DNA of 64,000 nucleotides, taken from positions 124,001 to 188,000 of the forward strand of contig NZ_BONV01000015.1 of assembly GCF_016862895.1 (NCBI RefSeq), written 5' to 3'. The position numbers and the translations under genes were made by a program. The stretch is from Planotetraspora kaengkrachanensis (GTDB lineage Bacteria; Actinomycetota; Actinomycetes; Streptosporangiales; Streptosporangiaceae). Positions 51,559 through 54,173 of the stretch are shown in pieces (positions within the stretch are counted from its first letter, which is position 1; each line of letters opens with the position of its first letter). The notes under the pieces were generated by a model that was not told the origin of the DNA, did not search any database, and saw only the letters and a list, made by a program, of their open reading frames with translations.

Positions 51559-51576
51559 AAGTTGGCTATACAACTT
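51559..51576 (+). promoter_or_regulatory. Operator/promoter of the fused phosphonate oxygenase gene
   Basis: AAGTTGGCTATACAACTT has perfect 6-bp arms (AAGTTG/CAACTT) and contains a -10-like TATACA (51567-51572). It ends 20 bp before the ATG. Its minus-strand core TTGTATAGCCAA matches at about 9 of 12 positions what I recall of the mycobacterial PhnF operator (TGGTATAGACCA). The adjacent GntR protein is the likely binder. Confidence 0.65.
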
Positions 51577-51596
51577 TCCCGCCTCTGGAGGACACC

Positions 51597-53252
51597 ATGC
51601 CGGACCTGCCGATTTCCGCGCCCCCCGCGACCGACCCCGCCGCCCTCGTCGCGGGGCCGCCTCCGGCATGGCTGCGGGACAACTGCCCGTGCGCCGAGTG
51701 CCGTGATCCGCGCAGCGGGCAGAAGTTCTTTCAGATCACCGACCTGCCGGCCGGCCTCGCCGTCGGCGCCGTGACCGCGCGGCAGGTCCACGGCGCGGAT
51801 GCGGTGGAGGTGATCTGGTCTCCGGACGGCCACCGCTCGGTCTACGCCGTCGAGTGGCTGACCGCCGGACCGGCCGACCCGGACCAGGGGGACCACCGCA
51901 ACGAGGCCGGCAAGCAACTGTGGGAAGCCGCGGACCTGGGGGTACTGCCGGAGGCGGACTGGCCGGCCTATCTGTCAGCGGACGGGGAGCGTGCGCGGGT
52001 GCTTGTGGCCGTGCAGCAGCTCGGCTTCGCCCTGCTGCGTTCAGTGCCGGCCGAGGAGGGCCAGGTCCTGGCCGTGGCCCGGTCCTTCGGCTTCGTCCGT
52101 GAGACCAACTACGGCGAGCTCTTCGACGTCCGGGTGGAGCCCGCTCCGGACAACCTCGCCTTCTCCTCGCTGGCCATCGCCCCGCACACCGACAACCCGT
52201 ACCGCGACCCGGTGCCGACCATCCAGCTGCTGCACTGCCTCAGGAACGCTGCCGAGGGCGGCGACTCCGGGCTCGTCGACGGGTTCCACGCCGCTGCGCT
52301 GCTGCGCGAAGAGGACCCCGAGGCGTTCGCCGTGCTGACCCGCACCCCCGTGCCCTTCGGTTACCGCGACGCCCGCGCCGAACTGACGGCACACCGCCCG
52401 CTGATCGACCTCGACCCGATGGGCCGCATCCGCGAGGTACGGTTCAACAACCGGTCGATGGGCACCCTGCGCCTTCCCGCCCGCGAACTCGAGGCCTTCT
52501 ACGCGGCCTACCGCACCTTCGCCGAGTTGCTGCTGCGTCCCGAACTGCAGCTGACGTTCCGTCTGGGGCCGGGCGACTGCCTGATCTTCGACAACACGCG
52601 GCTGCTGCACGCACGCACCGCCTTCGAGCAGGCGGGAGCCCGGCACCTGCAGGGCGCCTACGCCGACCTCGACGGGCTGGCGAGCACCTTGGCGGTGCTG
52701 CGGCGTACCGCCGTCCTCGATGAGCTCGCCGAGCTCTTCCACGGCCCGGGTTCGGCCGACTACCTGGGTGAGGTGGTCACCGTGGCCGAGCACATGCTGC
52801 AGGCGGGCGCGCTTGCGGAGGCCGCGGGCGCTCCCGCGCACCTGGTGGCGGCCGCGCTCCTGCACGACGTCGGCCACTTCTCAGGGCCGGTCAGCGGGCA
52901 CGACCTGATGGCGGGCACCGACAACCGGCACAGCCACACCGGTGCCGACCTGCTCGCCCGGTGGTTCGGTCCGGAGGTCACCGAGCCGGTGCGGTTGCAC
53001 GTCGCCGCGAAGCGTTACCTGTGCGCGGTCGAGCCCGGCTACCGGGCGCTGCTGTCTGAGGCGTCGGAGTACACCCTTCAGGTGCAGGGTGGCCCCATGA
53101 ACGAGCAGGAGGCCGCGGCGTTCGCCGCCCTGCCCGGCGCGGCCGACGCTGTCGCGGTCCGACGCTGGGACGACGAGGCCAAGGAGACCGACGCGGCGAC
53201 CCCGGACTTCGAGCACTTCCGGCCGCTGCTCGCCTCGCTGCTGCGCCGCTGA
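51597..53252 (+). CDS. Fused TmpA/PhnY-like 2-oxoglutarate dioxygenase and PhnZ/TmpB-like HD oxygenase (predicted phosphonate-degrading enzyme)
   Basis: 551 residues, two enzymes in one chain. Residues about 20-95 form a gamma-butyrobetaine-hydroxylase N-domain with a zinc cluster (C30, C32, C35). About 125-365 is a TauD-type Fe(II)/2-oxoglutarate dioxygenase (H197-x-D199, distal H338, 2OG-binding R349). About 375-551 is an HD oxygenase with Y389/E392, H399, H423-D424, H445, H468, K472 and D525, a set and spacing nearly identical to PhnZ (Y24/E27, H34, H58-D59, H80, H104, D161). GGPMNEQE and HVAAKRYL are also family motifs. Predicted path: hydroxylation next to phosphorus, then oxidative C-P cleavage to phosphate plus glycine or glycine betaine. 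GGAGG precedes the ATG. Confidence 0.85.
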   Translation: MPDLPISAPPATDPAALVAGPPPAWLRDNCPCAECRDPRSGQKFFQITDLPAGLAVGAVTARQVHGADAVEVIWSPDGHRSVYAVEWLTAGPADPDQGDHRNEAGKQLWEAADLGVLPEADWPAYLSADGERARVLVAVQQLGFALLRSVPAEEGQVLAVARSFGFVRETNYGELFDVRVEPAPDNLAFSSLAIAPHTDNPYRDPVPTIQLLHCLRNAAEGGDSGLVDGFHAAALLREEDPEAFAVLTRTPVPFGYRDARAELTAHRPLIDLDPMGRIREVRFNNRSMGTLRLPARELEAFYAAYRTFAELLLRPELQLTFRLGPGDCLIFDNTRLLHARTAFEQAGARHLQGAYADLDGLASTLAVLRRTAVLDELAELFHGPGSADYLGEVVTVAEHMLQAGALAEAAGAPAHLVAAALLHDVGHFSGPVSGHDLMAGTDNRHSHTGADLLARWFGPEVTEPVRLHVAAKRYLCAVEPGYRALLSEASEYTLQVQGGPMNEQEAAAFAALPGAADAVAVRRWDDEAKETDAATPDFEHFRPLLASLLRR

Positions 53253-53259
53253 CCGCTCG

Positions 53260-54045
53260 TCAGCGGGCCGGGCCGGCGCGGTGCAGGCGCGAGAGGGCGG
53301 AGGCGGCGATGGAGTTGTGCACCGTGAAGGCGACGGTGCCCGGCAGGTAACGGTCCTCGGACCACTCCAGAGGCCGCCCCGCCGGATCGGTCGTGTGACG
53401 GCGTTCGCGCAGCAGCGCGGCGCCTTCGGCACATCCCAGCAGCCGGGCGTCGTCGGCGTCCGCGTAGGCCAGGTCGATGGTGTGGTCGGCGTCGGCGAAC
53501 ACGATGCCGTGCTCGAGCAGCTGCTCGGTGTAGGACACCTCGTTCGCGGGCAGCTCGGCCACGAGTTCGCCGACCCAGACCGGGTAAACGGTCCGCTCGA
53601 TCATCACCGGCCGGCCGGACAGAGTGCGCACCCGCCGCGCCGCGTACACGTCGGCGCCCGGTTCCAGGCGCAACTGCTCGCGCTCCTGGCCGTCCGCGGG
53701 GCGGGCCACCATGGAATCCAGGACGGCGCCGGGTTCTTCGCCTATCGACCGCGCCCAGTTGGTGAAGCTCAGCAGTTCGGAGAAACTCTGCACCGGCGCG
53801 GTGCCGAGCACCACGCGCCGGGTGCCGCGCCGGGAGGTCACGAGGCCGTTCGAGCGCAGCAACGCCAGGGCCTGCCGGATCGTGCCCCTGGAGACCCCGT
53901 AATGCTCGGCGAGGGCCGCCTCGGCGGGCAGCTTGCCGCCCGAGCCGTACGACCCGGCCGCTATGGCGTCGCGCAGATCCGCGGCCACCCGGCGATACAG
54001 CACGCCGTCGTCCGTGCCCCGCCGCGTCCCGTCACGGTCTGTCAT
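53260..54045 (-). CDS. GntR-family repressor, HutC/PhnF-like (UTRA domain)
   Basis: 261 residues. N-terminal winged helix (LYRRVAADLRDAIAAGSYGSGGKLPAEAALAEHYGVSRGTIRQALALLRSNGLVTSRRGTRRVV) and a C-terminal UTRA ligand domain (about 100-250). The HutC/PhnF subfamily senses small metabolites and represses catabolic genes. It is convergent with the fused oxygenase (7-bp gap), and a palindrome in that gene's promoter is the natural target. The ATG at 54045 has AGGAG five bases upstream. Some relatives sense histidine or sugars, so the phosphonate link rests on context. Confidence 0.88.
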   Translation of the reverse strand: MTDRDGTRRGTDDGVLYRRVAADLRDAIAAGSYGSGGKLPAEAALAEHYGVSRGTIRQALALLRSNGLVTSRRGTRRVVLGTAPVQSFSELLSFTNWARSIGEEPGAVLDSMVARPADGQEREQLRLEPGADVYAARRVRTLSGRPVMIERTVYPVWVGELVAELPANEVSYTEQLLEHGIVFADADHTIDLAYADADDARLLGCAEGAALLRERRHTTDPAGRPLEWSEDRYLPGTVAFTVHNSIAASALSRLHRAGPAR

Positions 54046-54173
54046 CCGGTCTCCTGCCGACTCTGGCGGCGCTTGCGCGAGCAGCCGTCCGGCGACTCTA
54101 TCCGCCGTCGGCATGCCCGCCGAGGGGGCCCGCATCGGGGCCACCGGGGATCATCGTCCGGCCGAAAGAAGAA

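Follow-up and report, generated by a model that had tools for sequence, protein, structure and literature searches.

Judged from its sequence, a single gene in the 64,000-nt stretch of Planotetraspora kaengkrachanensis DNA that we analyzed (hereafter, the window) is an intact fusion of a TmpA-type Fe/2-oxoglutarate (2OG) hydroxylase and a PhnZ/TmpB-type HD oxygenase. The best explanation, and one that we consider probable, is that a single polypeptide would convert 2-trimethylaminoethylphosphonate (TMAEP) to glycine betaine and phosphate in two steps, under the control of a neighboring GntR/UTRA protein. Such an enzyme would move phosphonate mineralization by paired iron oxygenases into soil actinobacteria, together with a candidate regulator, operator and importer.

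The fused gene and its two halves

The gene and its surrounding elements lie at the following window positions (aa, residues of the 551-aa protein):

51559..51576, no strand assigned: perfect 18-bp palindrome AAGTTG-N6-CAACTT upstream of the start codon, proposed operator
51587..51591, forward strand: GGAGG ribosome-binding site, 5 nt before the ATG, read from the sequence
51597..53252, forward strand: fused TmpA-TmpB-type gene, 551 aa plus stop, no internal stop
51663..51860, forward strand: GBBH-like N-domain, aa 23-88 (Pfam PF06155, 2.4e-9)
51951..52661, forward strand: TauD-type Fe/2OG hydroxylase domain, aa 119-355 (Pfam PF02668, 2.9e-51), with Fe triad H197, D199 and H338, 2OG arginine R349, phosphonate set N186, N285 and R286, and aromatic cage positions Y172, F176, F189 and Y355
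52668..52742, forward strand: junction without a linker, predicted as one continuous helix, aa 358-382 (AlphaFold2)
52710..53249, forward strand: HD diiron oxygenase half, aa 372-551 (TIGR03276, 216.1 bits), with Y389, E392, H399, H423, D424, H427, H445, H468, K472 and D525
53260..54144, reverse strand: convergent GntR/UTRA (HutC-type) regulator (Pfam GntR 1.1e-18, UTRA 1e-24)

We found three Pfam domains in this one open frame, in the order GBBH-like_N, TauD and HD (the last at aa 396-467, 7.2e-6), in agreement with a sequence-only reading of this DNA that had proposed a one-protein fusion of the two oxygenase types. The residues named in that reading (H197, D199, H338, Y389, E392, H399, H423, D424, H445, H468, K472 and D525) are all where it placed them. 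Its label "TmpA/PhnY-like" was apt for TmpA but not for PhnY, since the other partner proteins encoded beside the HD genes of relatives belong to a separate family, PhyH; Pfam gave no PhyH match in the 551-aa protein up to E 0.001. We take PhnY to be a member of the PhyH family, an assumption supported by the GmPhnY model NF052437, which gave a weak, below-cutoff match to part of a protein that begins with a PhyH domain.

The hydroxylase half passed the NCBIfam TmpA model NF049936 (429.1 bits against a cutoff of 400, aa 24-371), failed the model for gamma-butyrobetaine dioxygenase (BBOX; TIGR02409, 362.5 bits against 414.75) and did not reach the cutoff of the trimethyllysine dioxygenase model. 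Its closest solved chain was TmpA (1.7e-88), followed by BBOX. Residues N187, N287 and R288 of TmpA hydrogen-bond the phosphonate (PMC9296572, available in part); N186, N285 and R286 of the window protein align with them, and human BBOX has Ala at the column of R286. A similarity search with the window protein gave 85 loci, of which the best 80 included 39 same-order fused loci; together with the window, these made up the 40 same-order fusions in which we assessed conservation. All 17 tabulated hydroxylase-half positions (the zinc-type set, Fe triad, 2OG arginine, phosphonate contacts, aromatic cage and neighbors) were kept in 40/40, with H197, D199, H338 and R349 unchanged throughout.

The zinc-type set of the N-domain (C30, C32, C35 and H79, likewise kept in 40/40) aligns with the C, C, C and H of human BBOX, which presumably bind zinc in that enzyme. 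The GBBH-like N-domain had been put forward as favoring the trimethylated substrate, but it proved not to be diagnostic: BBOX has these cysteines, and characterized TmpA has A, D, T and K at the four columns. Because TmpA is without the cysteines, the N-domain says little about the substrate.

The HD half passed the phosphonate-HD model TIGR03276 narrowly (216.1 bits against a cutoff of 214.6; 219.2 in the genome search) and missed the TmpB model NF049941 by 104 bits (196.2 against 300). Two TmpA-linked proteobacterial HDs were likewise under the TmpB cutoff (257.7 and 273.1), and three PhyH-linked HDs that we tested scored 141-171 bits with this model. The score of the window's HD half with the hydroxymethylphosphonate model was lower than with TmpB (130.6 bits), and its closest solved chain was TmpB (1.8e-43), ahead of PhnZ (9.4e-31). 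By these comparisons, the HD half is of the general phosphonate HD oxygenase type, and we do not file it as TmpB proper.

The PhnZ/TmpB type is described as having an H..HD..H..H..D diiron motif with a YxxE loop (PMC8177086, in part) and a fifth His (PMC11203657, in part). In the window protein, the motif corresponds to H399, H423, D424, H445, H468 and D525, the loop to Y389/E392 and the fifth His to H427. The counterparts counted on the PhnZ chain are Y24, E27, H34, H58, D59, H80, H104, K108 and D161, and the near-identity of spacing noted previously was borne out (3, 7, 24, 22, 23, 57 in the window; 3, 7, 24, 22, 24, 57 in PhnZ). The ten residues given for this half in the feature list were kept in 40/40 same-order fusions (39 of them from the best 80 of 85 loci). 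Other HD columns vary even among fusions (A403, F428, R483, A484, N502, E503 and W524), possibly reflecting a shifted substrate preference.

An AlphaFold2 model built from an 86-row alignment (mean pLDDT 88.9, pTM 0.80) was compared to solved structures with VIA-align. It matched TmpA 6npb over 352 aligned residues (Z 37.1, rmsd 2.1), and its HD half matched substrate-bound PhnZ 4n71 (Z 27.1, rmsd 1.6, 177 residues) and TmpB 6npa (Z 27.0, rmsd 2.5, 175 residues). Thus, the earlier description of TmpA-like and PhnZ/TmpB-like halves agrees with the predicted folds as well as with the two sites, both intact in sequence. The pLDDT was 87-93 over aa 351-380 and 67 over aa 381-390. In fused proteins the end of the TmpA half runs directly into the first HD helix, with 1 to ~10 extra residues in some lineages. 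The predicted junction helix suggests at most a stiff connection between the two halves; channeling between them is speculation.

We considered that only one half might be active in vivo, for example in a carnitine-type (gamma-butyrobetaine) hydroxylase carrying a phosphohydrolase or a structural HD domain. Such a protein would account for the zinc-type N-domain shared with BBOX and for the BBOX score of 362.5 bits, but that score is under the BBOX cutoff and the Arg at position 286 is absent in BBOX. Moreover, the YxxE loop, the fifth His and the diiron ligands are intact in 40/40 fusions (39 from the best 80 of 85 loci), and purifying selection is at least as strong on the HD half (dN/dS 0.06-0.15) as on the hydroxylase half (0.19-0.22; four comparisons each). 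We therefore regard a single active half as very improbable.

Proposed reaction and comparison with known systems

In the two-step TMAEP reaction that we favor, the TmpA half would use Fe(II), 2OG and O2 to hydroxylate C1 of TMAEP, and the HD half, with a mixed-valent diiron center, would use a second O2 to cleave the C-P bond, releasing phosphate and glycine betaine at an overall cost of two O2 and one 2OG. This chemistry is established for TmpA and TmpB (PMC10574752 and PMC8177086, both in part). For the window protein we infer both activities, the substrate and the repression described below from residues, models and fold.

The trimethylated substrate proposed in the sequence-only reading still appears the likeliest, on grounds other than the N-domain: the TmpA model was passed and the BBOX model was not, the Asn/Asn/Arg set is kept (BBOX is without the Arg), and the aromatic cage positions are kept. 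The main rival is that the same two-step chemistry acts on another aminophosphonate, either aminoethylphosphonate (AEP), its mono- or dimethylated derivative, or a longer-chain homologue such as PhoF accepts. Consistent with this alternative, the ABC importer found with these genes has below-cutoff matches to AEP transporter models, the HD half misses the TmpB cutoff, and the fungal protein PhoF accepts AEP and 3-aminopropylphosphonate (PMC10574752, in part). On the other hand, the TmpA cutoff is reached, the aromatic positions and phosphonate set are kept in 40/40 fusions (39 from the best 80 of 85 loci), and the HD half fits the TmpB model (196.2) better than the hydroxymethylphosphonate one (130.6); the three PhyH-linked HDs reach only 141-171 with TmpB. 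Another aminophosphonate is possible, if on the unlikely side, and TMAEP remains our preferred substrate.

Each half of the window protein matches its counterpart in the TmpA + TmpB system of Leisingera caerulea (6npb/6npc and 6npa), with identities in structure alignments of 43-44% for TmpA and 40-43% for TmpB. The Fe triad, the phosphonate Asn/Asn/Arg, the diiron ligands and the YxxE loop are shared; in contrast, TmpA and TmpB are two proteins and the window protein is one polypeptide, with N-domain cysteines and an HD half under the TmpB cutoff. Human BBOX shares the GBBH N-domain with its zinc-type set, the TauD domain and the aromatic positions, but it has no HD half, carries Ala in place of Arg286, and is 29-30% identical. 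PhnY* + PhnZ (HF130_AEPn_1) follow the same pathway logic, with an HD fold like that of the window protein, but are separate proteins acting on AEP, and we take PhnY* to belong to a different hydroxylase family.

In PhoF, from the fungus Fonsecaea multimorphosa, the 2OG hydroxylase presumably lies N-terminal to the PhnZ-type HD domain, as in the window, and the PhnY-like first half is presumably of the PhyH type. Like the window protein, PhoF combines a 2OG hydroxylase and a PhnZ-type HD domain in one chain (PMC10574752, in part), and the previous statement that PhnY + PhnZ and TmpA + TmpB are only separate proteins is accordingly outdated, as PhoF is a PhnY-PhnZ fusion. According to the part of this source that describes PhoF, rather than to its sequence, its hydroxylase is PhnY-like where that of the window is TauD/GBBH (TmpA), its substrates are AEP and 3-aminopropylphosphonate, and its taxon is fungal rather than actinobacterial. 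DfmD, a 2OG enzyme of dehydrofosmidomycin biosynthesis in Streptomyces, also acts on TMAEP (PMC9296572, in part). It is 28-30% identical to the window protein in structure alignments, but it performs a biosynthetic rearrangement and desaturation, and one phosphonate-contact Asn is replaced by Ser (same source).

We recognized no bacterial TmpA-TmpB or PhnY-PhnZ fusion in the literature, in sources available in part; the sole fusion found was fungal PhoF, by way of a review, which is weak evidence of absence. Thus, the fusion principle is already known from PhoF, and what is new is a fusion of the TmpA type that recurs in several orders, together with its conserved regulatory unit.

With respect to other phosphonate routes in the window's genome, the C-P lyase PhnJ gave no match. 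Matches to the PEP mutase and phosphonatase families were all below cutoff, so neither phosphonate synthesis nor the PhnX route is shown there.

Fused and split genes among relatives

The fusion was present in 5/5 searched genomes of Planotetraspora, the window's genus, where identity to named strains was 93-95%, and as a single frame in 12/297 family genomes, from four genera. In 22 further family genomes there were matches at E 1e-30 or better that were not full-length, some of them as two neighboring genes. The fusion occurs in Planotetraspora, Herbidospora, Kitasatospora and Streptomyces, and elsewhere the two halves are usually encoded by neighboring genes, many of which overlap. Among 396 genomes drawn from the phylum, 11 had TmpA-family matches at E 1e-40 or better, two of them over the cutoff.

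The best 80 of the 85 loci comprised 39 TmpA-HD fusions, 3 HD-TmpA fusions, 27 adjacent split pairs, 1 distant pair, 8 with TmpA alone and 2 unscored (L062, with an interrupted TauD frame, and L087, cut by a contig end); fused proteins are over-represented in these counts because the loci were chosen by similarity to the window protein, and L007 and L069 are the same sequence counted twice. In Streptomyces sp. P3 (L062:7833-9131), the frame of the TauD half is interrupted and the HD gene is open. In 31 split pairs, counted after setting aside L019 and L020 (repeats of L007 and L008), L062 and L098 (halves 4.8 kb apart), the candidate HD start overlaps the TmpA stop by 4 nt in 20 pairs, by 1 nt in 4 and by 7 nt in 2. 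With overlaps of 1-7 nt, a small indel would suffice to join such pairs. The natural series of the same enzymes, either joined or overlapping, with Streptacidiphilus as an example of a split pair, is suited to testing channeling against mere co-expression.

This proximity of the split halves (26/31 pairs overlapping by 1-7 nt) is also what would make it conceivable that an assembly artefact or a recent frameshift joined two genes in the window. However, the identical architecture recurs in the 12/297 family genomes and in 39 of the best 80 of 85 loci (overlapping sets), and the junction sequence is similar among fused relatives. Conservation of the fused frame across relatives refutes an assembly artefact, and we give next to no credence to an accidental joining of either kind.

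A single origin of the same-order fusion was rejected: in a concatenated tree of 39 hand-thinned rows, placing the 26 same-order fusions in one clade gave a p-AU of 0.0001. The tree points to at least two fusions, or to fusion followed by fission in some lineages, both equally allowed. In an HD tree of 55 hand-thinned rows, the window sits among TmpA-linked HDs. Uniting all TmpA-linked HDs, TmpB among them, in one clade (36/55 rows) was not rejected (p-AU 0.633), and the tree held to that clade was 2.5 lnL better, but the clade appeared in only 10% of 200 bootstrap trees; PhnZ is on a long branch, so its place is unsure.

Several relatives have other arrangements of these domains:

L120:580-3021 (= L170), L171:1306-3810 and L119:661-2928 (= L172): single frames in the order phosphodiesterase-HD-TmpA
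L066:7944-9632, L067:7881-9683 and L068:7977-9629: Acidimicrobiaceae HD-TmpA fusions, in reverse order
L106:1483-3141 (reverse strand) and L107:139-2058: PhyH-HD single frames, a PhoF-like architecture in bacteria

The phosphodiesterase-HD-TmpA frames came from 3/247 genomes of one actinobacterial class, with that of L119 running off its contig. Their type I phosphodiesterase part (PF01663), which Pfam matched in L119 and L120 and which we recognized by alignment in L171, is similar to NPP enzymes and has a weak resemblance to phosphonoacetate hydrolase; their TmpA scores (307-311) are below the cutoff. Such a protein is a possible ester-to-phosphate enzyme. We entertained a broader scenario, in which actinobacteria repeatedly and independently built TMAEP-to-phosphate fusions, the rigid, linkerless junction would pass the 1-hydroxy intermediate directly, and some lineages added a phosphodiesterase that would take an ester to phosphate in one chain; taken together, this seems to us rather unlikely.

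The three Acidimicrobiaceae proteins were ruled out as same-order fusions, as HD comes first and TmpA second. Trp replaces the fifth His in 3/3, and in L066 the fusion is followed by separate genes for a PhyH protein and an HD protein. In the HD tree, which included two of these three proteins, the HD halves nest among PhyH-linked HDs, beside the free HD gene from their own locus (support 100/94 and 100/99). By its position in the tree, the Acidimicrobiaceae HD-TmpA protein is a separate fusion with another HD lineage.

The PhyH-HD architecture was assigned by Pfam for L107, where a phosphodiesterase-like gene adjoins the PhyH-HD gene, and by similarity to L107 for L106. A HAD hydrolase is fused to a phosphonate-type HD domain in L103:1471-2739 (reverse strand). 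PhyH-linked actinobacterial HDs of the L104-L117 group are mostly without one residue of the YxxE loop; in one alignment, the gap falls at the column of L390 in 14/16 rows, PhnZ being among the 16. TmpA-like genes without an HD partner in the locus were seen in L090, L092 and L096 (Onishia, Halomonas) and in L093, L094, L097 and L100; several are without phosphonate or cage residues, and these genes probably act on other substrates.

Regulator, palindrome and importer

In the regulatory part of the favored TMAEP reading, the GntR/UTRA protein probably represses the fused gene via the palindrome a short distance before its start codon, a phosphonate ligand would relieve this repression, and in many relatives a PhnS-like ABC importer would belong to the same regulon. 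The likely start of the regulator gene is near 54045, and the protein scored below cutoff with the HutC, PhnF and PhnR models. All 39 related fused loci from the best 80 of 85 have a homologue (61-92% identity) on the opposite strand, downstream of the fused gene; the distance is no more than 350 nt in 32 loci and 1.0-5.0 kb in 7.

The specific form of the palindrome, GTTGNCTRTACAAC, is expected 0 times in 64 kb and had one exact match in 8.77 Mb. With one mismatch allowed, there were 4 sites in the genome compared to 6 for a reversed control pattern, so no wider regulon is visible in the window's genome. Since the bare form GTTG-N6-CAAC arises by chance in 33/100 shuffled windows, the case for the palindrome rests on conservation. 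We found the bare form between -200 and +20 of the start of TauD homology in 38/39 related fused loci (from the best 80 of 85; L057 is without it), at a density of 4.66 per kb in that region compared to 0.044 per kb over the other 641,585 nt, and the full 18-mer was exact in 30/39. The available sequence of L057 and of L193-L195 contained no copy. Two copies ~113-124 nt apart precede the fused gene in L028 (7825, 7949) and L034 (7840, 7953).

We first noticed the palindrome in the window and then scored it in relatives that are kin to each other; because related loci are not independent, these counts and those for the regulator are weakened. Of the two positions, the copy beside the importer gives the more independent support. 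In 23 loci from the best 80 of 85, a gene for a PhnS-like binding protein is divergent from the GntR gene, and 23/23 loci with both have a palindrome either in the intervening stretch or at most 150 nt away. Thus, a unit of regulator, operator and enzyme is well supported by conservation across these loci.

Promoter and terminator consensus scans at the locus gave no match, nor did an Rfam search upstream of the fused gene. A tannase, a DUF308-like protein (below its cutoff), an ECF sigma factor, tRNA-Ala and a sugar-type ABC system (read from the open reading frames) are also near the fused gene in the window, and none of them is phosphonate-specific.

In the window's genome, the PhnS-like binding protein is 69% identical to that of a relative and is unlinked to the fused gene, in an ABC operon with permeases, an ATPase and a HAD hydrolase gene (G000:C28, L165:6571-11215). 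No palindrome was found in the 17 kb around this importer, wider patterns included; this, the missing linkage and the HD score under the TmpB cutoff count against the TMAEP explanation. The importer matches aminoethylphosphonate transporter models weakly, below cutoff, and these models point to AEP, not the trimethyl form. A second binding-protein match in the window's genome, 45% identical and with an internal stop, lies at C13.
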